Origin: a virus
Length of the DNA: 64,000 bases
Strand: one strand, 5' to 3'
Virus record (IMG/VR): IMGVR_UViG_3300010403_000002
Location: 1 to 64,000 of that record
The first letter of the stretch is position 1. Every line of letters begins with the position of its first letter. The position numbers and the translations under genes were made by a program. Below the pieces are notes generated by a model. It was given only the letters and a program-made list of their open reading frames with translations, was not told where the DNA came from and searched no databases. Positions 31,520 to 45,958 of the stretch are shown here, piece by piece.

Positions 31520-32368
31520 TTATGCGTTGCGGTCTGCCGGTTTCACGGAGGGCATCTGGCAAACGCGCAAATCCAGCGGCCATTCGCTCCAATCGCCGCC
31601 CTTGCGGTCTTCGTACCGATACTTGAACACCAGCTCTGTCTTGAAAGAGGAGGCAGGCGGGATCATTTCAATCGGATTTGCGCCAAGCTGCTTCACAAAG
31701 CAAGCCACGTCCTGCGCCTTACACTGCGCGACGATTGAACGCGCCCAGCGCAGATCGAATGGACGCGCACCGTGGCCAGATTCCCCGCCAACGATTATTT
31801 GACTTAGCCAGCTAGCAGCTAGCTCCAAATCAATTTCGCCTAGTAAAGGTTCGCACGATACGAACCAGACAACGGGCAGATTCCACAATCCCGGCTGGTT
31901 CAGAATCGCCCGCGTCCGCTTGTCAAACCATTCTTGATTTTCTGCTGTGAAGCCGAGCCAGACATTCGGATAAGTTGCGCGGCTGAAGTCGGCGGGCAGG
32001 CAAGATAAGATTCTATCGGCGCGCTTTGTGAGCAATTGCCAGTCAAGCCAGGGAGTCGCCTTTATCAGCGGCCAGAGCTTCGCCCGTTCTTGCTCAATCG
32101 TCGGGTGATCCTCGAACACGTCCGCCATACTTGAACAAAACACCCGACGGCGAACACCCTCACGCTCAGCCTTCGCGTTCCATTTCAAAGGCTCGCGCCA
32201 GTGCTTTTCGCCGAACGTGCGCCGCTCAGCTTTCGGCCCCCAGCCAACGCCGTAACGCTTTGCCCACGTCTCTGCATAGCAATGCTCGCAAGCGGGAGAC
32301 ATGCGAGTACACCCCCAGGCAATGTTAAAAGTGTGATCCGTCCACTGGATTGCTGTTTTCTCTCCCAT
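31520..32368 (-). CDS. DUF5131 (phage Gp37/Gp68 family) protein
   Basis: The 282-residue product has the N-terminal signature IQWTDHTFNIAWGCTRMSP with ACEHCYAE. Cys20, Cys27 and Cys30 (C-x6-C-x2-C) suggest an iron-sulfur cluster. VVWFVSCEPLLGEIDL and IIVGGESGHGARPFD are further family blocks. It is a common phage and plasmid protein with a presumed radical-SAM-like fold and no established reaction. It sits between two methyltransferase genes. Confidence 0.8.
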   Translation of the reverse strand: MGEKTAIQWTDHTFNIAWGCTRMSPACEHCYAETWAKRYGVGWGPKAERRTFGEKHWREPLKWNAKAEREGVRRRVFCSSMADVFEDHPTIEQERAKLWPLIKATPWLDWQLLTKRADRILSCLPADFSRATYPNVWLGFTAENQEWFDKRTRAILNQPGLWNLPVVWFVSCEPLLGEIDLELAASWLSQIIVGGESGHGARPFDLRWARSIVAQCKAQDVACFVKQLGANPIEMIPPASSFKTELVFKYRYEDRKGGDWSEWPLDLRVCQMPSVKPADRNA

Positions 32369-32458
32369 TTAAGTAGTCTCCTGTTCAGCGCGCTCGCAGA
32401 ATGCGCGCATCGTCTCGATGATGCGGGCGGCGAGTTGTTCAGCTTGTGCGAGTTTCAT
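32369..32458 (-). CDS. 29-residue ORF
   Basis: It begins MKLAQAEQLAARIIETM and ends FCERAEQETT, directly followed by the DUF5131 start (TAA then ATG). The pattern LAxxI...CERxE recalls the very beginning of Pol X-type nucleotidyltransferases, so it may be a truncated remnant. Evidence is slight. Confidence 0.3.
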   Translation of the reverse strand: MKLAQAEQLAARIIETMRAFCERAEQETT

Positions 32459-32465
32459 TACTTAC

Positions 32466-33551
32466 CTAAAAGCCAAACCCGATGTTGGTCTGGCAGCGTT
32501 GCTCGATCAGCTTGATGTACTCAGGATTGAGTTCGATCAGAATTGCGCGACGACCATTTTCAATAGCGACCTTGCCGGTTGTACCGCTGCCCGCGAACGG
32601 GTCAATCACTGTGCCGTCTTTTGGACATCCAGCAAGAATACAAGGGCGTATCAAGTCGGGCGGGAAGGTGGCGAAGTGCGCACCTTTGTAACCTTTCGTC
32701 GTGACGGTCCAGACGCTTTTCTTATTCGCCATTACCCCGCCACGCGGCGAACCGTCAGCGTTGAAATATCCGCTATGACCCTGTGACGCCGGAGCGCCGC
32801 CCGCCATCTTTGGCGTCCATTCTTTGCCTGACTGTAGGCGCGTATCCGGGCATTGTTTGTTGCCGCCGAACTTCACCGCCTTCATTGCGCCATTCGTCTT
32901 ACCCGGCACACGATCACTGCCCTTCTGATTCTCTACGTCCTGAATTAAGCGCGCCGCACTGGTGTCTTTGATTGGCTCTTTAATTGATTCCTGGTCGAAG
33001 TAGTACCGCGGCGATTTGCTTAGCAAGAAGATTTGTTCGTGCGATTTTGTGCATCGGTCGGTAACTGATTCGGGCATCGGGTTCGGCTTGTGCCAGATGA
33101 TTTCCTGCCGCAAATACCAGCCATCAGTACGCAGTGCGAAGGCAACCATCCAAGGGATTCCGATGAGGTCTTTTGCCTTCAGGCCTCGAGTGCCACTGCG
33201 GTCAGCCATTGCTGGCTTAAATGTCCCGTAACGATCTTTGCGGCGCTTGTCCAGCGCCTTCGCACTTGTACTGCCCGCTGCAACGTAATTACCCCAACTG
33301 CCCGAGTAGCTATCTCCAAGGTTCACCCAGAGTGTCCCGTCTGTGCGCAGAACGCGCCACACTTCTCGGAATACCTCAACCAATCTAGCAACATAAAGCT
33401 CCGGCGTTTCTTCCATACCAATCTGCTCTTTTCTTCCGTAATCCCGTAAACCAAAGTACGGCGGACTTGTGACGCAGCACTGCGCACTGCCAGCTTCAAG
33501 CTGTGACAGTTTTTCGAGCGCGTCGCCTTGAAGAATAGTGAGCAGGTTCAT
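32466..33551 (-). CDS. Beta-class DNA amino-methyltransferase
   Basis: The 361-residue product starts at ATG 33551, overlapping the upstream stop (ATGA), with TGGAGC as ribosome-binding site; the 30-residue upstream extension is rejected. Motif IV TSPPYFGLRDYG (residues 28-39) comes before motif I VIDPFAGSGTTGKVA near the C-terminus, the beta-class order. TSPPY fits either N4-cytosine or N6-adenine methylation. The region between holds the target-recognition part. An orphan phage methylase is likely, protecting against restriction or marking DNA. Confidence 0.85.
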   Translation of the reverse strand: MNLLTILQGDALEKLSQLEAGSAQCCVTSPPYFGLRDYGRKEQIGMEETPELYVARLVEVFREVWRVLRTDGTLWVNLGDSYSGSWGNYVAAGSTSAKALDKRRKDRYGTFKPAMADRSGTRGLKAKDLIGIPWMVAFALRTDGWYLRQEIIWHKPNPMPESVTDRCTKSHEQIFLLSKSPRYYFDQESIKEPIKDTSAARLIQDVENQKGSDRVPGKTNGAMKAVKFGGNKQCPDTRLQSGKEWTPKMAGGAPASQGHSGYFNADGSPRGGVMANKKSVWTVTTKGYKGAHFATFPPDLIRPCILAGCPKDGTVIDPFAGSGTTGKVAIENGRRAILIELNPEYIKLIEQRCQTNIGFGF

Positions 33552-34090
33552 TGCTCCAGCGCCCCCTCCCAAGCTTCGTTTGTGACTCCGAGATACCACA
33601 GCAATACCTCGCGCGCTTTTTCCCAGCCGTTGCACACGCACACGCAGTAGCCTTGCTCCGATAGCCTAGTAATCCAGTTCCGCTGTGATAGGCTCACATC
33701 TGAAGCAGTGGCGCTTTGGCGCTTCAGCTCGATGTACAGGCCGTGAAACCCGCGCGCGGCGACCGGCAAGAAAATATCCAACACTCCGGCTTTAACGCCT
33801 TCAGCGCGCAGCTTGCCTGCTACAGCCTTGCGCCGATGCCCCCCGTTTGGGATAGCGTAAGCAAGATCGAGCGCGGGCAAGGTTTGCTTTTGTCCTTCCA
33901 TCCAGTTGAAAAGCATTACCTGCTCTTCGTGCTCGGTTGGGCATTTGCGCCGCTGCTCACTCATCTCTTTAGCCACGCGATCAATCCCCGCACGCCCAAC
34001 GGCGGCAGGAGACAGACCGGGCACCTTACGCCCAAACTTCGCTTGGTGCGCGGCGGCAAGCTCTTCTGTGATGCCGTAACTTCTGCTCAT
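33548..34090 (-). CDS. VRR-NUC domain nuclease
   Basis: The 180-residue product has the compact VRR-NUC core: AIPNGGHRRKAVAGKLRAEG, then GVLDIFLPVAARGFHGLYIELKR, then SQRNWITRLSEQGY. The catalytic Asp and the E-L-K triad are present, although the usual Pro before the Asp is Leu. A helical N-terminus of about 45 residues precedes it. Stand-alone phage VRR-NUC proteins are thought to resolve branched DNA. It is coupled to the methyltransferase by ATGA. Confidence 0.8.
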   Translation of the reverse strand: MSRSYGITEELAAAHQAKFGRKVPGLSPAAVGRAGIDRVAKEMSEQRRKCPTEHEEQVMLFNWMEGQKQTLPALDLAYAIPNGGHRRKAVAGKLRAEGVKAGVLDIFLPVAARGFHGLYIELKRQSATASDVSLSQRNWITRLSEQGYCVCVCNGWEKAREVLLWYLGVTNEAWEGALEQ

Positions 34091-34093
34091 TGG

Positions 34094-34531
34094 CTAGTTG
34101 CCCGCCGAAGTTTCGCCAAGCGCGGGCAGTAGCTTCTGCACTTGCCCGGTCAGATACATTTGCTCGACAGCCTCTTGAGTTTCCTCGTAAATCGTCTTAC
34201 CACTTGGCAATACGACGAACGCATAAAACTCCTGTTCAAAACTCACTGTGCCGTTTTCGACAAGATCGAGCTTGGCCTTAATGCCGAGCGCTAGGCTGCG
34301 CCAGCGCTGCCGCGTTGCCTGCTCAAAAGCGGCCTGCGAGTAATATGTGTCGCGCACGGGCATCTCTTGAATGTACTTGACCTGGCGATTTTTCATCTTG
34401 AACTGAATCAAGACTCGGTTGTCATCCCAGCCGTACATGAAGCCCGTTGCACCGTAGCGGATCAGCGTGCGCTCTATTTCGGTGCGCGATTTCTCAGGGC
34501 TGACTTGTGTTTTTGCTGCAAACTTAGCCAT
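34094..34531 (-). CDS. Conserved-type phage protein (KSRTEIE..YGATGF)
   Basis: The 145-residue product starts at MAKFAAKTQ, preceded by AAGGAAAG. SPEKSRTEIERTLIRYGATG, then WRSLALGIKAKLDLVENG and the FEQEFYAFVVLPSG block are features I know from a widespread uncharacterised phage early family. Its place among recombination and replication genes suggests DNA metabolism, but no role is established. Confidence 0.65.
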   Translation of the reverse strand: MAKFAAKTQVSPEKSRTEIERTLIRYGATGFMYGWDDNRVLIQFKMKNRQVKYIQEMPVRDTYYSQAAFEQATRQRWRSLALGIKAKLDLVENGTVSFEQEFYAFVVLPSGKTIYEETQEAVEQMYLTGQVQKLLPALGETSAGN

Positions 34532-34727
34532 TGGTCTTTCCTTCTCCTGCTTTGTCCGGCTGGTGCTCGTCCAAAATGCGCTCAATGTGGTCACGCATCG
34601 GCTCTTCGGCCCAGCCGTCACCACTGTCTTTGCCTGCCATCCAAAGAACCAAGCGGTGCGCACGTTGGCCATTGCCGTCCGTGAAGAGGTGATGCGCGAT
34701 TTCGGTTGCTAGGTCATGGTTATTCAT
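34524..34727 (-). CDS. Small early hypothetical protein
   Basis: The 67-residue product contains LFTDGNGQRAHRLVL and GWAEEPMRDHIERIL, helical and acidic. Its start overlaps the upstream zinc-ribbon stop (ATGA) and its end overlaps the next gene by 8 nt. No function is known. Confidence 0.6.
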   Translation of the reverse strand: MNNHDLATEIAHHLFTDGNGQRAHRLVLWMAGKDSGDGWAEEPMRDHIERILDEHQPDKAGEGKTNG

Positions 34728-34906
34728 CGTTTCACCGCCTCGCGTTGCTCATTGGCTTCCTGCGCCATCTCCGCTCTCACTTTCGGCGCGCACTCCCAGC
34801 AGTACCGCATTGCCTCAATGATGCGCTCGCAATCAATGCAGACAGGTGCGAAGCATTCATCGCACTCGTCCAGGAACCCGTCACCTTCGTTACACGTTGG
34901 ACACAT
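34724..34906 (-). CDS. Double zinc-finger mini-protein
   Basis: The 60-residue product has four CxxC pairs: CPTC, CDEC, CIDC and CWEC. These could bind two zinc ions, as in a small RING or treble-clef-like unit. AGGAGG precedes the ATG. It is probably a protein- or nucleic acid-binding adaptor; the function is unknown. Confidence 0.65.
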   Translation of the reverse strand: MCPTCNEGDGFLDECDECFAPVCIDCERIIEAMRYCWECAPKVRAEMAQEANEQREAVKR

Positions 34907-35336
34907 CGTGTTCCTCCTGCTGTTCCGTTTCTTGTGGTGTCTCGGGTGCTGGCGACAGGTCGCACTCCGGCATCTTAATTGCCGTTTGTTTAATTTGATG
35001 TACCTCGCACACTAACTCGGCGACAACTGAATGGCGCGTGATATTACTCGCCCCGTCTTTCACGTAGACTTCCATTTCATCAATAAGACCATCCCCGTTG
35101 TGGCACTTCATATCGAGGTACTTTTCGGCAGCGTCTTGGGCGTCCCGCGCGTGAATCCCCCTGCACCATTCAATCTCATCAAACTCCGCTTGGGTAAGCT
35201 CACTGATCTCGCGTTTGTCTTTATGGCCAAACCACTCCTTACGATTGACGCAACGAAATAAAGGCGCGCATTTGTGGCTCCCCCGCCAATCCCAATCACC
35301 ACAAGAAGAACATTTGATAAAATTCGATTCGCTCAT
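34890..35336 (-). CDS. Zinc-binding early protein
   Basis: The 148-residue product has an N-terminal CSSCGDWDWRGSHKC motif (zinc ribbon or CCHC-type), an acidic middle and a Gln/Glu-rich C-terminus. GGAG lies 6-7 nt upstream. It overlaps the following gene by 17 nt. No family is recognised. Confidence 0.55.
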   Translation of the reverse strand: MSESNFIKCSSCGDWDWRGSHKCAPLFRCVNRKEWFGHKDKREISELTQAEFDEIEWCRGIHARDAQDAAEKYLDMKCHNGDGLIDEMEVYVKDGASNITRHSVVAELVCEVHQIKQTAIKMPECDLSPAPETPQETEQQEEHDVSNV

Positions 35337-35364
35337 AATTTTCTCCGCCGTGTTTTGTTGTTGA

Positions 35365-36096
35365 TTATTCGTGTGCTTCTTTATCAGGTTGCTGCTCGGG
35401 TGCGCGCCTCTCGGCTGCCCGCTCCGCCGCGCGTGTTATCGTCACTTCCAGTCCGTCGTAAGCAGCCTTTGGTAAGTCCTGCCCAAGCCGGAGGAGTAAT
35501 TCATCCGGCGAAATAAAAGTCCGCGAACTTACGCTGAATGCAGCGCGGATAATGTCGTCAGCCTTCGTGCCAACCGGCAGCGCCAACTGGCCGCGCTTGA
35601 TTTCCAGCCACTCCATTAGGTTTTGATTGCTGAACAGATTCGCCGCTACTACTTCTTTCCAGAATTGCCCATGCTCGCCTTTGGCAGGTCTCAGCTTCGG
35701 CTCTTTCTTCGTCCGGCTCTCTTTCTCGGTCAGCGGCTCGCCGGTCTTATCGCCCTTCTGCACTTCGACCTCGAATACAGCGTCGGGTAAATCGAAAAAC
35801 CTAGCCGTCTGCACACGCTCGGAAAGTGGTGCATCAAAGCGCGCCTTGAAGCGCTTACGCCCGCCAAGTGCTGTTTTGTGCGGTGGAATGCTGGCGCGGA
35901 AACGAATAGCCGTTGGTAGATGCGCGTCGTGTCGCACGGTCAGCGTGAGCAGTCCGTTGCCGCAATCAAAGAGGCGTCTGGCAGCGAGCACGTGAGATTG
36001 CTCAATTACGAAGATCACGCACATTTCGCCGTCACCGCCCGTCAGGTTGCGGTCGGAGTTGTCGAGCTTGGCGTTGAAGATGATCGGTTCGCTCAC
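35365..36096 (-). CDS. Early hypothetical protein, GTG start
   Basis: The 243-residue product starts at a GTG (VSEPIIFNAKL) overlapping the upstream TGA (GTGA), with GGGAGGT 6 nt upstream; the ATG 15 nt earlier contains that very site and is rejected. The N-terminal half is beta-rich (LTLTVRHDAHLPTAIRF). The middle is Lys/Glu-rich and the C-terminus is Arg/Glu-rich. No family is recognised. Confidence 0.6.
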   Translation of the reverse strand: MSEPIIFNAKLDNSDRNLTGGDGEMCVIFVIEQSHVLAARRLFDCGNGLLTLTVRHDAHLPTAIRFRASIPPHKTALGGRKRFKARFDAPLSERVQTARFFDLPDAVFEVEVQKGDKTGEPLTEKESRTKKEPKLRPAKGEHGQFWKEVVAANLFSNQNLMEWLEIKRGQLALPVGTKADDIIRAAFSVSSRTFISPDELLLRLGQDLPKAAYDGLEVTITRAAERAAERRAPEQQPDKEAHE

Positions 36097-36536
36097 TGTG
36101 TTACCTCCCATAAAGCTTTCTGCTCAGTTGGCGCTTTATCAACGCGCGGCCTGCTCTCTCGACTCCAAGAGCCACCACCGGCAACCCCCAACTCTTTGTA
36201 GCCAGCAGCTCGCAAAGAAGCCCCGCCTTCGCTGGGCAGCGTGTATGTGATCAGGCGGCGATAACCCAACGCGAATACAGCGCGACGAACTGCGCCAAGT
36301 AGGAACGAGGCGGCGTTATGCGTGCCATCAGTGCAGAGCCGCGTGAGTTCCATCGTCCAGCCATCGTCAGACATGCGCGCGGTTGGTCTACTGACCACTG
36401 CCACGCCGACGACTTTCTCGCCGTCGCTCGCTCCGACACCGAACTTCCAGCCAATCGGCGGTAAGTGATGACGATGGTGTTGCGCGATAAACGTGCAAGC
36501 CTCGTCAAAGTTGATTGGCTGTAGTTGCAAAGCCAT
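36093..36536 (-). CDS. XF1762-like GNAT-type protein
   Basis: The 147-residue product begins LQPINFDEACTFIAQHHRHH, followed by WKFGVGASDGEKVVGVAVVSRP and LTRLCTDGTHNAASFLLGA. This is the layout of the phage XF1762 family, which has a GNAT acetyltransferase-like fold. The substrate is unknown. It lies between DnaB-linked genes in the early operon. Confidence 0.7.
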   Translation of the reverse strand: MALQLQPINFDEACTFIAQHHRHHLPPIGWKFGVGASDGEKVVGVAVVSRPTARMSDDGWTMELTRLCTDGTHNAASFLLGAVRRAVFALGYRRLITYTLPSEGGASLRAAGYKELGVAGGGSWSRESRPRVDKAPTEQKALWEVTQ

Positions 36537-36538
36537 CG

Positions 36539-36730
36539 CTAAAACATCCCCACTGCTGCTTTGCGCTCACTCTGGTAAATCTCTTCGCAATCAGCCCGCC
36601 TGCGCTCGGAGTCGCGGAAGACGGCGTTGCGAATGTCTTGCAACAACGTGAGCGTTTCTTGCTGGTCTTGTCGCTGCGCCAGGACAATGCGCTCGTCCAG
36701 ATAGTCGAGCATTTCCGTTGTACTACTCAT
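36539..36730 (-). CDS. Small helical protein next to DnaB
   Basis: The 63-residue product is one long helix rich in Gln, Arg and Glu (DERIVLAQRQDQQETLTLLQ). The start overlaps the DnaB stop (ATGA). It may be a helicase-associated factor, judged only by position. Confidence 0.5.
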   Translation of the reverse strand: MSSTTEMLDYLDERIVLAQRQDQQETLTLLQDIRNAVFRDSERRRADCEEIYQSERKAAVGMF

Positions 36731-38112
36731 AGGTCGTTGTCCTTCCGTAGATTTTCAAAGCTTGCTGACACCTTGTTAAACCGCAGTTCGATCTTGCCGG
36801 TTGGCCCGTTGCGGTTTTTACCAATAATCAAATCAGCCAGTCCGACGCGCGTCGTTTCGGGTTTGTAGTATTCTTCCCGATGAAGCATCAGCACGATGTC
36901 TGGCTCGTATCCACCGACATAGGAAACGTCATTCAATGTCGGCGCTTTCACGTCCTGTCCTTCGGTTTTATTGAGCGGCAGAATTGCGATCAGTGGCGTG
37001 TTGAACTCTTTAGCGATTGCTTTTAGTTCTTGCGAAAGCGCCTCACAGCGAATCTTCTCGCTCGACTCTTGCGCGCGACTCGCGCCCGGCAAGCGCATCA
37101 GCGAAAGGTAATCCACCAGCACGAGCGAGAGCGGCTTACGCAGACGGCGCAGCTTGGCTCGCACCTGCATCGGTGAAAGCGCCGGACGGTCATCAACGGT
37201 GAGGTTACCGATGCGAGAGAGCACGACACGCGCCGCGTTGAGGCGCTTCCACTCTTCGGAACTCAGTGTGCCTGTCCGAAGTCTGCGCAAGTCAATGCGC
37301 GCTTCTTGTCCGTACCAGCGGTTCACGACCTGCTTTTTGCTCATCTCCATCGAGAAGACCGCAACCGTCTTACCTTCGTTGGCGGCGTGCTTGGCCGCAT
37401 TCAGTGCCGCGCAAAACGCGAATCCGCTTTTTCCCATCGAAGGCCGACCAGCCACGTAAACCAACTCGCCCGGCTCAAAGCCAGCCGTCAGATAGTCCAA
37501 GTCGTAAAAGCCAGTAGCCGTCCCGATGATTGATTTATTCGCCTCGGAAATCGTAATTATCTCAGAAAAGCGCACGTCGGCCATTTCCTTAACCGACTCC
37601 CACGTATCACGGCAACCGGGCAATTCCAGGTCGTAACCGACGCGCTGCGCCCGCTCAATTACGTCCTCAACGGATTCAGATTTGTCATAGGCAATTTCCA
37701 TGAGGAAGCGCGCCTGTGTGAGCACTTCGCGCCTAAGCGCCTGCTCTTTCACGGCACGGGTGTAGTTGTCAATGTTCGAGAAACGCGGCACGCCGTCGTA
37801 GAGACTGCTCAGGTAAGCCGGGCCACCAACGCGCTCTAGGTCGCCCGTGGCCTGCAATTCGTTCTGCAAAATCAGTGGCTCAAGTGAGTGGCCGCGCAAG
37901 ACAATGCGCCCCATCGCCGCGAAGATGACGCGATGACTGTGCAGTGAAAAAGTATCCTCTGGCTTGGCGTTCGGGCCGACTGGTAAAGCCGCCGCAGTTT
38001 CGGCATAAAGCGCTCCGCCGTCGAGCAGGAGCACGCCGAGGATCATCCGTTCAGCTTCGCTGTCGTGCGGTGCTACTCGTTCGAGTTGTGCGGAATTATT
38101 CTGTGACATCAT
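36727..38112 (-). CDS. dnaB: Replicative DNA helicase, DnaB family
   Basis: The 461-residue product has an N-terminal helical domain (PHDSEAERMILGVLLLD) that contacts primase and the initiator. The RecA-like ATPase follows, with Walker A GRPSMGKS (residues 222-229), SMEMS, and Walker B LVLVDYLSLM (Asp334); a C-terminal KNRNGPTGKIELRF block completes it. The length and order match full-size DnaB. It unwinds DNA at the phage fork. Its start overlaps the initiator gene by 17 nt, so the two are co-expressed, and the phage carries its own helicase rather than borrowing the host's. Confidence 0.95.
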   Translation of the reverse strand: MMSQNNSAQLERVAPHDSEAERMILGVLLLDGGALYAETAAALPVGPNAKPEDTFSLHSHRVIFAAMGRIVLRGHSLEPLILQNELQATGDLERVGGPAYLSSLYDGVPRFSNIDNYTRAVKEQALRREVLTQARFLMEIAYDKSESVEDVIERAQRVGYDLELPGCRDTWESVKEMADVRFSEIITISEANKSIIGTATGFYDLDYLTAGFEPGELVYVAGRPSMGKSGFAFCAALNAAKHAANEGKTVAVFSMEMSKKQVVNRWYGQEARIDLRRLRTGTLSSEEWKRLNAARVVLSRIGNLTVDDRPALSPMQVRAKLRRLRKPLSLVLVDYLSLMRLPGASRAQESSEKIRCEALSQELKAIAKEFNTPLIAILPLNKTEGQDVKAPTLNDVSYVGGYEPDIVLMLHREEYYKPETTRVGLADLIIGKNRNGPTGKIELRFNKVSASFENLRKDNDL

Positions 38113-38944
38113 CGCGCTTCTTGTGCTTGCCTTCGGTTAGTGCCGCCGTGCCGCGTCCTGTCCAATCGTCGTAGGCGGGGCCAGGTGGGGCGTGTGAACC
38201 GTTTCGCGCTGGCGCTCTCGCTTGATCCCTGCGCCAAGCGGTTAAATCGCGGACAACGAAATTCAGGGCGCTTGTTCTACTTCGCCCGGTGTCGAACTCG
38301 CGCAAGTCGGCAATTGTGAATTTTGCAAGTTGCAATTCTTTGGCGGCTTGTTTTATCCGACCGACAACGCTGTAGTGCCTGCTGGTTTCCGCTGTGATTT
38401 CAGCCAGGACGCATTCAAACTCCGAAAGCTGACCAGGTAGGGTTTCTTCGCCGAGGAAGTCAGAGGTGCACTCTCCCTCTCTCTTCTGACGGTCTTCCTG
38501 ACGGTTATTCCTTATATGCGTGTCGTCTCGTTCACCTTTTATGTCGTCAGCTTCACCTTTTACGCTCCCTAAAAGGTGAACGTCCTGCACCTTTTCTTGG
38601 TCTAATTGGTGAAGCTGGTTCACCTTTTTACCGTCTAAAAGGTGAAGCCCGTTCACCTTTTCTGTCGTTTCGTTCACCTTTTCTCCGGTCAGTAAGAGGC
38701 GATAGCGAGAGCGATTTCCGCGCCCGACTCCGCGTTGTTCGCAAACGATCAAGCCTGCCGATTCCAGGTGCTCGACGATGCCGATTGCTCCGCGTTTTGT
38801 TATGTCACAGGCTTCCGCAATCATGGTCATTGAAGGGAAACAGATACCCTGTTCATCCGCTCTTTCAGCTAAAAAAAGCAGGACGAGTTTACGTTCGGAC
38901 TTGAGTTTTACGCGCCATGCGGCGTCTCGGTATGCTCTGCTCAA
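38096..38944 (-). CDS. Replication initiator-like winged-helix protein
   Basis: The 282-residue product probably starts at TTG 38944 (SRAYRDAAWRVKL), with CGGAG 8 nt upstream; homologue-like spacing to KLVLLFLAERADEQGICFPS supports it. The ORF is open further upstream, but those ATGs lack ribosome-binding sites. A HTH_36-type winged helix spans about residues 15-75 (MIAEACDITKRGAIGIVEHL). The middle is built of EKVN and LHLL repeats encoded by iteron-like DNA. The C-terminus has a DnaD-like helical part. It probably binds those iterons and loads DnaB, like lambda O. Confidence 0.7.
   Translation of the reverse strand: MSRAYRDAAWRVKLKSERKLVLLFLAERADEQGICFPSMTMIAEACDITKRGAIGIVEHLESAGLIVCEQRGVGRGNRSRYRLLLTGEKVNETTEKVNGLHLLDGKKVNQLHQLDQEKVQDVHLLGSVKGEADDIKGERDDTHIRNNRQEDRQKREGECTSDFLGEETLPGQLSEFECVLAEITAETSRHYSVVGRIKQAAKELQLAKFTIADLREFDTGRSRTSALNFVVRDLTAWRRDQARAPARNGSHAPPGPAYDDWTGRGTAALTEGKHKKRDDVTE
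38531..38682. repeat. Iteron-like repeat array (candidate origin)
   Basis: The 10-bp unit TTCACCTTTT occurs in direct orientation at 38531, 38552, 38619, 38652 and 38673, and inverted (AAAAGGTGAA) at 38571 and 38637. Degenerate copies are TGCACCTTTT at 38586 and AATTGGTGAA at 38604. Centres are spaced 15-21 bp. The array sits inside the initiator gene, upstream of dnaB, exactly where lambda keeps its origin in gene O. It is likely the phage replication origin. Confidence 0.65.
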
Positions 38945-39352
38945 TGTCCGCTCCGGGAAGGCTAAGGTGATGGAACGAACAGCACGGCCAGGTAGAATGG
39001 CTCGCCGTTCTTGGGCCTTGCCTTCAGAGTTGCTACACAGTGAAGACGCAGACGCGCGAGGCGGCGAGCCATCCGGCATGAATAAACTTGTGCGGATATA
39101 TTTGCAAGCCTGGTGGGCCACGCACGTCTTCCGCGATCATCACTGTGTAGCGCGGACAATATAGCATAAATCCGAGATATGGTGTAACGAAAAATGCGTT
39201 TTAAGCCAATAAAGACGCGGGTTTTAGTGCGATTGCTCGCACGATTTTCGTGAGAAATGTTCACCGAAATCACCGTGAGATGTCACCAGTCCGTTGGGCA
39301 CCGTGCGGGCTGATGTAGGGTTAATAGTTTCGCTCCTGGTGGGAGCGGCGTT
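38945..39352 (-). other. Leader/regulatory region of replication genes
   Basis: No convincing gene is seen in these 408 bp. A 36-codon ORF (MARRLARLRLHC...) ends just before the initiator but lacks a ribosome-binding site. The region holds a leftward promoter (39158-39187). It also has stacked small palindromes GTGCGA-TTGC-TCGCAC and CACGA-TTT-TCGTG near 39230, and a run of GTGA/TCAC half-sites at 39249-39287 that could be an operator. Confidence 0.45.
39158..39187 (-). promoter_or_regulatory. Sigma70-like leftward promoter
   Basis: Read on the minus strand: TTACAC (-35), an 18-nt spacer and TATATT (-10, five of six matches). The transcript would start near 39150 and read through the initiator and dnaB genes. 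Confidence 0.5.
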
Positions 39353-39607
39353 TTACTTGAACAGCACCGCGCGGACTGCGCAGTCTTTGGCCTCCAACAA
39401 TTTGCGTAGGGCAACCGTGCGCTCTGGGTTGCGCGGCAGAGCGGCGCCGATGGTGACAGTTCCACTCTCCGGCACGTTGTCGCCTTTAACGATGGCGTGC
39501 GCTAGGTCGCAGAAAGGTTTGCTGATTTCCTGCAAATGAGGGGGCAGGTGCTCATAAGCGAAGAATTGCAATAGTGGTTCGTTGGTCGGTTGGTTCTCAG
39601 TGTTCAT
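39353..39607 (-). CDS. Conserved-type phage early protein (LLQFFAYEHLPPHLQ)
   Basis: The 84-residue product has LLQFFAYEHLPPHLQEISKPF, then NPERTVALRKLLEAKDCAVRA, a pattern I know from many phage early regions with no assigned function. GGAGGT lies 6 nt before the ATG. Here the usual single block is interrupted by a short Gly/Val segment (VKGDNVPESGTVT). Confidence 0.7.
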   Translation of the reverse strand: MNTENQPTNEPLLQFFAYEHLPPHLQEISKPFCDLAHAIVKGDNVPESGTVTIGAALPRNPERTVALRKLLEAKDCAVRAVLFK

Positions 39608-39636
39608 AGGTTACCTCCTTGTTGTTAGTTCGAGAG

Positions 39637-39768
39637 TTACTCTGACCAGAAAAGCACGTACTCGATCAATCCGATCTGCTCCAGGAGGGCCTCGTCTTCT
39701 GTCTCGTTAAACTCTTCGCAGAGCGCGTCGTGCTTGGCGATTAACCGTTCTCGTTCTTGAATGGACAT
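39637..39768 (-). CDS. 43-residue acidic peptide
   Basis: The start MSIQERERLIAKHDALCEEF is preceded by a perfect AGGAGGT at proper spacing. The product is helical and acidic, ending EYVLFWSE. It lies between SSB and the LLQFFAYEHLP gene. Function unknown. Confidence 0.55.
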   Translation of the reverse strand: MSIQERERLIAKHDALCEEFNETEDEALLEQIGLIEYVLFWSE

Positions 39769-39850
39769 GAGTACCTCCTGGTTGTTGTATGGCCCGCCTC
39801 CTCCCAATCAACACAGCGCGCCGCGCGGGCTAGACGGAGCGCCGATCTTG

Positions 39851-40315
39851 CTAAAAAGGTATTTCGTCGTCGTCATGTTTGGACATTCGCGTTGCAGCGG
39901 TCGCCGCCGCTGGCTTGCTGCTCGGCGCGCGCTTGGCCGGTTCTCGCGTTTCCGCCTTGGCTGGTTGGTCTCCCTCGCCGCGCTCGGTTTTTGCGCCGAT
40001 GAATTGCAGTTCGGTGGCTGTTACTTCCAGCGACGAGCGTTTGTTGCCGTCGCGGTCGGTGAATTCCTCCAGGCGCACACGGCCTTCGAGGTAGACCGGT
40101 TTGCCTTTCGACAGGTACTCACTCGACACTTCCGCGAGCCTGCCCCAGCACGTGACGCGGAACCATGTGGCGACTTCTTCGTTTTCGCCGTTATTCTTGC
40201 GGCGCTCGGTGGTGGCCACGGAGAACTTGCAAATGGCTGTGCCTTGCGGTGTAAACTTCAGCTCGGGATCGCGGCCTAGATGGCCTATTATGATGATTTT
40301 GTTGAAAGATGACAT
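39851..40315 (-). CDS. ssb: Single-stranded DNA-binding protein
   Basis: The 154-residue product has an OB fold with NKIIIIGHLGRDPELKFTPQ, WFRVTCWGRLAEVSSEYLSK and GKPVYLEGRVRLEEFTDRDG. A Pro/Ala/Lys linker follows, and the acidic tip DDDEIPF is the partner-docking tail of bacterial-type SSB. It coats ssDNA during phage replication and works with the annealing protein two genes upstream. Confidence 0.95.
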   Translation of the reverse strand: MSSFNKIIIIGHLGRDPELKFTPQGTAICKFSVATTERRKNNGENEEVATWFRVTCWGRLAEVSSEYLSKGKPVYLEGRVRLEEFTDRDGNKRSSLEVTATELQFIGAKTERGEGDQPAKAETREPAKRAPSSKPAAATAATRMSKHDDDEIPF

Positions 40316-40326
40316 GCGTGTTTCTC

Positions 40327-40728
40327 CTAGCTTAGCCTGTTATGAAGTTCGTTAATTGCCCGCTCTAGCGCGCTCATCGCGTCTGCGATGTCTACCCACC
40401 CGATGAACCGCTCACCGTCTTCGGCCTTGCCGTAGGCATACTCTTCAAGTTCTGGGTGTAACTGGCGCAGTCTATTTAGTAGCGCTTGGTCATTCTTTGC
40501 CCACTCTTCGCGCTCCTGTTCAGACTGTTGCATTCGCACCATGTCCAGATCGTGACACTCACCGCGCAGATGGAATCCTGGCATTAAGCAGCGGTCTGGA
40601 AACTCGCAGCCGAATAAGTCGTCTTCTTCGTCGGGCGCGTCGAAATAGTCAGGGCCGCGATAATCCAAGTCGTCAGGCTCGAAGCCGTGCATTGTGTCTG
40701 TGATGTCGTCGTAAAGCTCAGTCTGCAT
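40327..40728 (-). CDS. Acidic Cys/His phage protein
   Basis: The 133-residue product has a very acidic N-terminus (PDEEDDLFG). The motif CEFPDRCLMPGFHLRGECH follows, a Cys/His cluster I associate with phage early proteins of unknown role and probably metal-binding. The C-terminus is helical. It lies between SSB and the Rad52-like gene. Confidence 0.6.
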   Translation of the reverse strand: MQTELYDDITDTMHGFEPDDLDYRGPDYFDAPDEEDDLFGCEFPDRCLMPGFHLRGECHDLDMVRMQQSEQEREEWAKNDQALLNRLRQLHPELEEYAYGKAEDGERFIGWVDIADAMSALERAINELHNRLS

Positions 40729-40745
40729 ACTCGCGCCTGCCTTGG

Positions 40746-41276
40746 TTAAGGTTTGTGATATAAATAAAGCCCCAGGCCGAACTTAGCTGCTGCGCGCCGC
40801 AGTGCCATTGATTCGGCGTTGCTAGAAGGGTCTCCGTACATCCGCTCGCCCTCTTCCGGCTCTTCCTCGGTGCCGGTGGCTTCGCGGTAGACAATCCCTT
40901 CAAGACAGGGAATGGAAAGCCGCACCGTCAGAACAAGCCGCCCTTCCGTGTTCCAGACGGTCGAGCGCACCTCGTAGCTCCAGCCGGCGGCATGGAGGTC
41001 GAGGTATTTCACGGCGTGATACCAGGGGATGAAGCTTATCGCCCTGCCACCTTTGGTTTTCTGTTTTAAGTGGCGCTCTTTAATCGGCTGAGACAGGTCG
41101 GCGATGATTGCAGCAAGGGGATGCAGTGCCGCAGTCTGCGTTAGTGACTGTTTTGCGTCCGCGTCTTTCTTCCATTCCGCGTAGTGTGGCGGGCAGAAGC
41201 CTTCCCGCGTTTGGCCGGTATATTTACATTCTGCTACTTCGCAGGTTATAACTGGGACTACAACTTGAGCTTTCAT
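40746..41276 (-). CDS. Rad52-like single-strand annealing protein
   Basis: The 176-residue product has an N-terminal C-x4-C-x10-C-x2-H zinc motif (Cys12, Cys17, Cys28, His31). The Rad52-type core follows: ISFIPWYHAVKYLDLHAAGW, VLTVRLSIPC, then YGDPSSNAESMALRRAAAKF with GLGLYLY. Such proteins anneal complementary ssDNA for phage recombination and repair, with SSB. It lacks the long C-terminal tail of eukaryotic Rad52, as usual for phage proteins. Confidence 0.8.
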   Translation of the reverse strand: MKAQVVVPVITCEVAECKYTGQTREGFCPPHYAEWKKDADAKQSLTQTAALHPLAAIIADLSQPIKERHLKQKTKGGRAISFIPWYHAVKYLDLHAAGWSYEVRSTVWNTEGRLVLTVRLSIPCLEGIVYREATGTEEEPEEGERMYGDPSSNAESMALRRAAAKFGLGLYLYHKP

Positions 41277-43451: not shown

Positions 43452-43535
43452 ACGCTTCACCTCAAAGTAGAAGCGGACGGCGCGTGCCGCTCGCCGCCAG
43501 CGAAGACCGTTAGTGGTTTCGCTGACGGATGACAG

Positions 43536-44345: not shown

Positions 44346-44768
44346 TTGAAAACTATTCCTCAACGCCTATGCAAGCTCGGCTGGAACCGGCGCGTCCTTA
44401 CCTACGCTGATTTCGAACAAGCCTGCGAAGACGATCAGATCACTGTCATTACGAAGCATCTGCCCGACGACCTGGGGCAGTACCGCATCGAACAGAGCAG
44501 GGAAGTGATTACGCTCGACCGCGCATTGCACGACCCGCTGCGCGTCTTCGTTGCCTTTCACGAGTTTGGTCACGCGCTCTATCACGTGCCAGGGCATTAC
44601 GGGTTGCACGCGAAGACCGAGCTTGAGGCTGACGTGATCGCCGTGGTGGCGTTGCTGCCGCGACCGTTACTTTACAAGTTATCACCCGGAGAGATTTCCG
44701 AAGCGCTGGGCTATCCACTCTCGCTGATTGATGAGCGGTATAGCATCTTGCGCAACCTTCAACTTTAA
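44346..44768 (+). CDS. ImmA/IrrE-type metallopeptidase
   Basis: The 140-residue product starts at a TTG 5 nt after AGGAGG. The zinc motif FHEFGHALYH (His72, Glu73, His76) and a downstream ELEAD (third ligand) define the family. Members cleave XRE repressors encoded beside them to trigger induction, so the 43893 product is the likely substrate. The TAA overlaps the integrase ATG (TAATG). Confidence 0.85.
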   Translation: MKTIPQRLCKLGWNRRVLTYADFEQACEDDQITVITKHLPDDLGQYRIEQSREVITLDRALHDPLRVFVAFHEFGHALYHVPGHYGLHAKTELEADVIAVVALLPRPLLYKLSPGEISEALGYPLSLIDERYSILRNLQL

Positions 44769-45958
44769 TGGCAATCAAGAAAGTCTACAGCAAACGACAG
44801 AAGGCGCACGTCTGGGGCTTTGACGTGTGGGTCGGCGGTCGGCGCAAGCGTGACTTCGCCTTTGCCACCAAGCGCGAAGCCGAAGACGCTGAGGCGGCGC
44901 TCAAGCTCGCTGCGCGGGCCGACAAGTACGGCCTGGCACGCGAGCGGGTGAAAATTACCGTGGCCGATCTGGTCGAAGCCCGCGCCGCCGCCTTGCTCGC
45001 CGCTGAGAAAGAAGGGAAGGACTGGAACCGGCGGCGCGCGGTCAAGGTGCTCCGCGCGTGGCTGAAGACGCTGCCCGCCGGTCTTGCGGTGGTTGAGGTA
45101 AAGACCGCGCACGTGAGCAAATATCTTGAGCAGCGGCGACCACACTTAAAGCAATGGTCGCTGATCCACGAACTCAGCCACATACGTTCCTGCTTGAGCA
45201 GCGCGCCGAATCACTTTCCCGGATTGCAAGACTACCAGCCGCCGAAGATGCCATCGCTGCCTGCGCCACGCCGGGGCCGCGAGCGCGTGCTTGAGCCTGA
45301 AGAGTTGGAGAAGATCCAAGCTCAACTGCGCGCGCCCTGGCCGCGTGCATCCGCGCGTGATTGCAAGCGCCGTGCGGTGTTGGCCGACTTCCTGGAATTC
45401 CTGGTGCTGACTGGGATGCGCCAGGGCGAAGCCGGGCGGCTGCGCCAAGCCGATGTCAATCTGCGTTGGCATACGGCGCGCGTGGAGGCGACGAAGACCG
45501 ACACGGTGCGCACCGTCCATTTGAACGCGCGTGCTGAAGAGATCGTCAGACGACAATTGGAAGGGAATCAGACTGACTGGGTGTGGCCGAACGAGCAGGG
45601 AACTGGCTCTTACAAAATCCATCGCACCGTCTTGAAGAAATGGTGCAAGCGCGCGGGTGTCGTCTATGGTAATAACGTGGCTGGTGGTTTCGTCCCTCAC
45701 GACTCGCGCCACACGTCGGCAACTGAGATGCTTCGTGCTGGCGCAGATCTCCCGACCGTTGGCGCGGTACTTGGCCATTCAGATATGACCATGACGATGC
45801 GCTATGGTCATACCTCACCCACTCAGCAACGCGCGGCGATTGACAGGCTTGCTGAGTATGGCGTCCATTTGGAGTCTAAAGTTCGTCTAAACGACAGACC
45901 GCTAACGGAGTCCCAGAGCGGGCAGAGCGAAGCCGAAGCACTGCGAAAAACTTCCTAA
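44768..45958 (+). CDS. int: Tyrosine-recombinase integrase
   Basis: The 396-residue product has an N-terminal arm-binding beta domain (KKVYSKRQKAHVWGFDVWVG), a SAM-like core-binding domain (about residues 62-150) and the catalytic domain. Arg218 (GMRQGEAGRL), Lys243, His311 and Arg314 (HDSRHTSATEML), His337 (LGHSDMTMTMRYGH) and nucleophile Tyr346 are all present, so it should be active. It inserts phage DNA at the host att site. The C-terminal tail after Tyr is about 50 residues, longer than usual. Confidence 0.95.
   Translation: MAIKKVYSKRQKAHVWGFDVWVGGRRKRDFAFATKREAEDAEAALKLAARADKYGLARERVKITVADLVEARAAALLAAEKEGKDWNRRRAVKVLRAWLKTLPAGLAVVEVKTAHVSKYLEQRRPHLKQWSLIHELSHIRSCLSSAPNHFPGLQDYQPPKMPSLPAPRRGRERVLEPEELEKIQAQLRAPWPRASARDCKRRAVLADFLEFLVLTGMRQGEAGRLRQADVNLRWHTARVEATKTDTVRTVHLNARAEEIVRRQLEGNQTDWVWPNEQGTGSYKIHRTVLKKWCKRAGVVYGNNVAGGFVPHDSRHTSATEMLRAGADLPTVGAVLGHSDMTMTMRYGHTSPTQQRAAIDRLAEYGVHLESKVRLNDRPLTESQSGQSEAEALRKTS

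Follow-up and report, generated by a model that had tools for sequence, protein, structure and literature searches.

An iteron array within the initiator gene of an uncultured phage, a probable part of its replication origin

Replication origins that lie inside the gene of their own initiator are known from a few models, namely phages lambda and P22 and the plasmid pSK41. In lambda the iterons are located in the middle of gene O, between the sequences encoding the winged helix and the C-terminal domain, and DnaB is recruited through the P protein. In P22 the origin lies within gene 18, which directly overlaps the dnaB-like gene 12, and gp18 hands over to gp12. For staphylococcal pSK41, the published account (PMC5703833) describes a Rep protein with a winged helix that attaches to four boxes inside rep itself; the linker encoded by the origin is dispensable, and the C-terminus of Rep recruits part of the replisome. 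The same paper presents a chimeric pPR9 Rep containing a PF13730 domain, an initiator reported to drive plasmid replication. The HTH_36 O-like initiators of Escherichia phage PhiR49_2, Shigella phage SfV (orf39) and Pseudomonas phage MD8 (gp56) belong to gammaproteobacterial phages and prophages, and for MD8 the occurrence of repeats inside the O-like gene has already been noted in print (PMC8508860). Among open-licence PMC papers we found no survey of such arrays and no code relating the recognition helix to the repeat.

We have analysed 64,000 nucleotides of viral DNA (positions 1 to 64,000 of IMG/VR record IMGVR_UViG_3300010403_000002), here called the window. A sequence-only reading of it had proposed a probable origin of the lambda O kind, an array of iterons bound by the product of the gene in which they lie. 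Our best explanation, which we consider very probable, is that the array at 38521-38682 is the initiator-binding part of the phage replication origin, carried by the very gene that encodes the initiator. The features of the locus are summarized in Table 1.

The 10-mer TTCACCTTTT has 12 matches in the window when one mismatch is allowed, compared with 2.95 expected, and none of 100 shuffles reaches 12. Eight of these matches cluster at 38531-38682, seven of them perfect and one with a single mismatch. A ninth copy was found by reading the letters directly; it lies on the minus strand at 38604-38613, and has the sequence TTCACCAATT with two mismatches. The nine copies occur in both orientations, with start-to-start steps of 21, 19, 15, 18, 15, 18, 15 and 21 bp, so that the number of copies, the seven perfect ones and the spacing of 15-21 bp given by the sequence-only reading all agree with our count. 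All nine are held within codons 147-197 of the initiator gene, placing them in the middle of the gene just upstream of dnaB, as had been claimed. Two direct copies occur in this pattern nowhere else in the whole 76,215-bp record.

Six of the copies pair into three 25-bp inverted units of the form AAAAGGTGAA-N5-TTCACCTTTT, with centers exactly 33 bp apart and with 0, 3 and 1 departures within the arms. The palindromic core is GTGAA-N5-T(T/G)CAC. The remaining three copies form the ends of direct units TGTCGT-N4-TTCACCTTTT, the first of which starts 10 bp outside the limits originally reported. Rather than a plain row of nine iterons, the array is better described as three palindromic, putative dimer sites together with three half-site units.

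Table 1. Coordinates of the proposed origin, the initiator gene and its neighbors in the window
Feature	Coordinates	Strand	Description
Initiator gene	38096..39121	-	341 aa; HTH_36 winged helix, linker, C-terminal helices
Recognition helix codons (~aa 108-120)	38762..38800	-	Thr108-Lys109-Arg110-Gly111 at N-terminus; modelled helix 109-121
Iteron array, proposed initiator-binding part of origin	38521..38682	-	codes ~aa 147-200 (linker)
Direct unit	38521..38540	+	TGTCGT-N4-TTCACCTTTT
Direct unit	38542..38561	+	TGTCGT-N4-TTCACCTTTT
Palindromic unit 1	38571..38595		AAAAGGTGAA-N5-TGCACCTTTT
Palindromic unit 2	38604..38628		AATTGGTGAA-N5-TTCACCTTTT; includes two-mismatch copy
Palindromic unit 3	38637..38661		AAAAGGTGAA-N5-TTCACCTTTT; perfect
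Direct unit	38663..38682	+	TGTCGT-N4-TTCACCTTTT
Weak candidate for melted tract	38471..38520	-	3' of array on coding strand; placed by lambda analogy
dnaB-like helicase gene	36727..38112	-	PF03796 E 4e-65, PF00772 E 4e-19, PHROG 19 E 1e-79
SSB gene, same replication block	39851..40315	-	PF00436 E 2e-34

The initiator protein matches PF13730 (HTH_36) at aa 73-125 with E 2.9e-10 and 40.2 bits against a cut-off of 25. Its PHROG matches are 1032 (E 2.9e-16) and 391, 'replication initiation O-like' (E 6.7e-16). No match to PF04492 (Phage_rep_O) was obtained up to E 1, whereas lambda O (E 6e-36) and P22 18 (E 7e-38) matched in the same test; RepA_N (PF06970) likewise gave no match to that level. The structure was predicted from a 28-row alignment and has a mean pLDDT of 59, so only the first domain of the model is reliable. 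This is a winged helix (~58-142) with pLDDT above 90 over much of the domain. It is followed by a linker (~143-235) with pLDDT mostly below 50, and by C-terminal helices (236-302) of lower confidence. The array encodes the first part of the linker, and the model has low confidence over aa 148-209. As the linker encoded by the array is disordered, the gene could accommodate binding sites without much expense to the protein.

A Foldseek search of the PDB with the model gave nothing under E 0.001, with a best value of 2.8e-3. Alignment by VIA-align to the 1000 top Foldseek chains returned winged-helix proteins of many kinds, the best having Z 9.9 over 65 residues. The matches include Rep structures (4pt7 and 4pql at Z 8.3 with rmsd 2.6-2.7 over 80-81 residues, and 5kbj in Foldseek). 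These model-based matches indicate the fold and carry no information on function. No lambda O structure is among the 50 matches listed from Foldseek or the 50 from VIA-align, an absence that excludes nothing.

The final 17 bp of the initiator gene are shared with the dnaB-like gene, and SSB and Rad52-like genes lie upstream. A 15-bp inverted repeat of 93% complementarity (39032-39046 and 39137-39151) flanks the start of the initiator gene and is a possible operator, and a terminator-like hairpin with a T run (39330-39348, + strand) is found between the initiator gene and the next gene upstream. On the other side of dnaB a Mom-like DNA modification gene (36093-36536, - strand; PHROG 1384, E 6e-33) hints that the phage DNA is modified. 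The ORF at 44768-45958 (+ strand), which we take to be integrase-like from a tyrosine recombinase motif recognized by eye, lies beside repressor-like ORFs, and the phage is therefore probably temperate.

We infer the following course of events at the array. The winged helix, probably as a dimer, would use its recognition helix to bind the palindromes, and the half-site would be read by Thr108 and Arg110. The initiator would go on to fill the array, including the three direct units, and the filled array would bend or wrap the DNA such that nearby DNA melts. The C-terminal part of the initiator would then recruit the phage's own DnaB, encoded immediately downstream, and the replisome would load there, making this the probable site of initiation. 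The melting tract is the weakest point of the mechanism. The DNA beside the array is ~60% AT for 20 bp and then ~43% AT and purine-rich, while the base level of the gene is 46% AT; the candidate tract is only moderately AT-rich.

The initiator might instead bind the array as an autoregulatory operator or for titration, with replication starting elsewhere. Two positions could be nominated for this, the segment 39155-39214, whose 60 bp are less stable than any others close to the initiator gene (z 3.2), and the minimum of cumulative GC skew at 43,463. Yet the array is located 440-600 bp into the gene and not at a promoter, and no sigma-70-like promoter was found in 38000-39700. Moreover, the lambda and P22 origins occupy the same position within their genes. 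We regard this explanation as improbable.

GC skew had been suggested by the sequence-only reading as a check on the origin, and it does not decide the matter. Negative skew stops at ~38 kb, while genes remain on the minus strand to ~43.5 kb. Third-position skew on the coding strand is -0.22 to -0.10 in the five genes from 38096 to 41276 and mostly ~0 to +0.15 in the genes from 31520 to 38112, but it is also negative in three genes further to the left. The cumulative minimum falls 5 kb from the array, where gene direction also changes. The skew is suggestive at most.

Arrays were then sought in related initiators. Set A comprises 160 loci, drawn from genome and viral contigs, that encode related HTH_36 initiators; 159 had a usable ORF and 76 remained after dereplication. 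Set B is more diverse; 51 HMM matches were reduced to 25 by length filtering and dereplication, and to 24 on removal of the window (5 phage records, 2 viral contigs and 17 prokaryote genome loci). Set C was held out, and contains 30 of 160 loci that are not near the earlier ones. Control ORFs were taken from the loci of set A, 184 in all and 174 after dereplication. An array was scored where repeats of a 7- or 8-letter motif in a 200-bp stretch came to a number reached by no more than two of 200 synonymous shuffles.

In-gene arrays exceed synonymous shuffles in 59 of the 76 set A initiators, compared with 3 of the 174 control ORFs, and they pass in 14 of the 24 initiators of set B. The same detector finds ATCCCTC four times in lambda O, within the annotated iterons, and TCGGTAAA four times in P22 gene 18, inside the annotated rep_origin; it gives no array signal in lambda P or P22 gene 12. 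In-gene arrays are thus general in related HTH_36 phage initiators, at the same position in the gene.

Searches using the initiator alone gave no confirmed relative in viral or genome contigs, and a dnaB search gave nine loci with 25-44% identity, which do not enter the evidence for the origin. The palindrome AAAGGTGAA-N3-8-TTCACCTTT was present in 42 stretches, none of which has as many as five TTCACC/GGTGAA hexamers at 250 bp or less from the match, so there is no relative of this very array among them. A search of viral contigs for the two-copy TTCACCTTTT pattern returned at least 120 stretches, many of them collagen-like Gly-X-Y genes, and was rejected as evidence of origins. Two other loci are recorded here as separate observations. 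At 372-894 of L037 an HTH-type ORF has four EKVNCSSPSDN-like repeats and 33-bp DNA repeats with AGTTCACCTTTT, and is perhaps another initiator with an in-gene array. At 900-1300 of L060 the hexamer TTCACC/GGTGAA occurs some twenty times in both orientations, often at intervals of 11-12 bp, beside the end of an ORF or within it.

The related initiators share the geometry of the palindrome. In set A there are 222 GTGMA/TKCAC pairs at a spacer of 5, distributed over 51 of the 76 genes, and at most four pairs at each other spacer from 0 to 25; the 184 control ORFs contain no pair at spacer 5. In set B spacer-5 pairs occur 16 times, in 5 of the 24 genes. In the relatives the palindromes run from a median starting codon of 86, immediately behind the winged helix, to about codon 118. 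The window contains three GTGMA-N5-TKCAC palindromes in its 64 kb, and all three are units of the array, so that its gene is among those with two or more after the winged helix. They have the core and spacing of those in the relatives, but the step is 33 bp where that of the relatives is mostly 21-24 bp (21, 24, 23 and 22 dominate). On a strict score for whole palindromes 41 of 101 genes lie above the 99% level of the null and the window lies below it, because it has only three full palindromes. The window gene belongs to the group of HTH_36 O-like genes with in-gene GTGMA-N5-TKCAC iterons, except in the step between palindromes.

In 131 genes (76 + 24 + 30 and the window) we examined how the residues that open the recognition helix go with the repeat sequence. 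Where set A proteins have arginine at the position of Arg110, 50 of the 52 genes contain at least two GTGMA-N5-TKCAC palindromes, compared with none of the 24 lacking arginine. The held-out set behaves in the same way (20 of 20 with Arg, none of 10 without). In set B, the more diverse one, the rule is weak, at 4 of 18 genes with Arg and none of 6 without. Genes without this arginine have other repeats, with GCCTACA accompanying Asp-Arg-Ser-Thr, mostly TGCCCCA accompanying Gly-Arg-Ser-Thr, and AAAACGG accompanying Asp-Arg-Lys-Thr. The last was seen in two distant initiators, L359 and L377, both with an Asp-Arg-Lys-Thr helix start and both with the in-gene 7-mer AAAACGG.

The residue at the position of Thr108 varies with the half-site. 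The nine genes with threonine contain 65 GTGAA and 7 GTGCA half-sites, compared with 222 GTGAA and 344 GTGCA in 74 genes with serine; three genes with glycine have 0 GTGAA and 16 GTGCA, and three with aspartate have GTGAC pairs instead. The window protein, with Thr-Lys-Arg-Gly, has five GTGAA half-sites to one GTGCA, matching the prediction of the threonine rule. Comparisons with nearest relatives and of residue association used 56 of the 57 labelled genes. In each of six Thr genes the GTGAA share is above that of the nearest non-Thr relative, some of these comparisons sharing relatives. In the held-out set the share was compared in the 20 of 30 genes having at least three palindromic half-sites, and is 0.92 and 1.0 in the two Thr genes, while none of the 17 Ser genes exceeds 0.70.

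There are exceptions to the rule. GTGAA outnumbers GTGCA in six of the 74 Ser genes, and one protein with Thr-Glu-Arg-Gly (L176) has a quite different repeat. The choice of A or C in the half-site is also associated with residue 53 (Ile/Val) and others. Parsimony on the tree gives ~9 changes of residue class and ~11 of repeat class; given this shared ancestry, the association rests on about that many changes and not on 131 independent genes. The covariation suggests that the repeat sequence follows two residues in the recognition helix of the protein made from the gene that carries it. On balance we favor, with moderate confidence, a wider proposal in which HTH_36 initiator genes are self-contained lock-and-key replicons, the residues at the helix start (the Thr108 and Arg110 positions) setting the half-site that stands in several copies in the linker of that same gene. 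The code would be Thr+Arg for GTGAA, Ser+Arg for mostly GTGCA, Asp+Arg for GTGAC, Asp+Ser for GTAGG and Gly+Ser for GGGGC.

This covariation bears on a second alternative, that some other protein (a host initiator, or a nucleoid or partition protein) binds the array, unrelated to the product of the gene. Binding by the gene product is a prediction, which leaves room for such a protein, but the repeat tracks two recognition-helix residues of the protein from the very gene that contains it, in the held-out set as well. No strict DnaA box (TTATNCACA) occurs near the array, so that a site for the host initiator would have to be of another kind. We therefore consider the involvement of an unrelated protein very unlikely.

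That the array is constrained as DNA is seen from its coding. The forward copies are read in two phases, as EKVN/EKVQ and as KGE, and the reverse copies in a single phase as LHLL/LHQL. One 10-mer thus appears in three codon contexts (EKVN, KGE and LHLL), and so it is the DNA and not a protein repeat that is under constraint. The sequence-only reading stated that the repeats dictate the EKVN and LHLL motifs, and the outcome it had set against its own proposal, protein repeats with free synonymous drift, is excluded by these three contexts. The 8-mer AAAAGGTG occurs eight times in the initiator gene, with a maximum of three in 200 codon-order shuffles, and the same scan gave no comparable repeat signal in six other genes of the window. 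There is a negligible chance that the repeats are the by-product of a repeated peptide (EKVN, LHLL) with no function as DNA, as can happen where direct TTCACCTTTT pairs sit in the collagen-like genes of viral contigs, since here the same 10-mer is present in both orientations and in all three codon contexts, and its eight 8-mer copies compare with at most four in 200 synonymous-codon shuffles.

The reading of the array as a probable origin bound by its own gene product, in the manner of lambda O, is thus supported by the O-like winged helix beside dnaB, the excess of arrays in related initiators over control ORFs, the detection of the lambda and P22 origins by the same method and the covariation of repeat and helix. 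What was noticed in one uncultured phage proves general in a large family of phage initiators that has been little studied, and two protein residues partly predict the repeat sequence. As the binding residues and the half-sites are encoded in one gene, protein specificity and origin sequence would change together. If the proposal is true, such a joint change in a single gene would give rise to new compatibility groups, and one gene would be enough to read off the origin of an uncultured phage. If binding agrees, the origin and the specificity group could be taken from sequence for many prophages, and these genes would provide a clean system for the co-change of a DNA-binding protein and its sites.

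In kind the finding is ordinary, a probable in-gene phage origin of known layout. The HTH_36 O-like initiators of PhiR49_2, SfV and MD8 have the same Pfam winged helix as the window protein, with the array right after it and, in most, the same GTGMA-N5-TKCAC geometry. The window differs from them in its AAAA extensions, its 33-bp step, its mixture of palindromic and direct units and its own dnaB downstream, and protein identity is only ~20-30%. Lambda O resembles the window in having its own iterons mid-gene between the same two domains and in being O-like by PHROG class, but it is a PF04492 protein with iterons ATCCCTC..., a clear adjacent AT-rich tract and recruitment of DnaB by way of P. 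By Pfam the window initiator is not a member of the lambda O protein family, although its origin probably works like one of lambda type. P22 shares both the in-gene origin and the direct overlap with a dnaB-like gene, while gp18 differs in its PF04492 domain and in its repeat. The Rep of pSK41 is distinguished by its plasmid setting, its RepA_N domain and its contact with primase rather than a phage DnaB. The best reading of these comparisons is that the window origin works like those of lambda O, P22 gp18 and pSK41 Rep.
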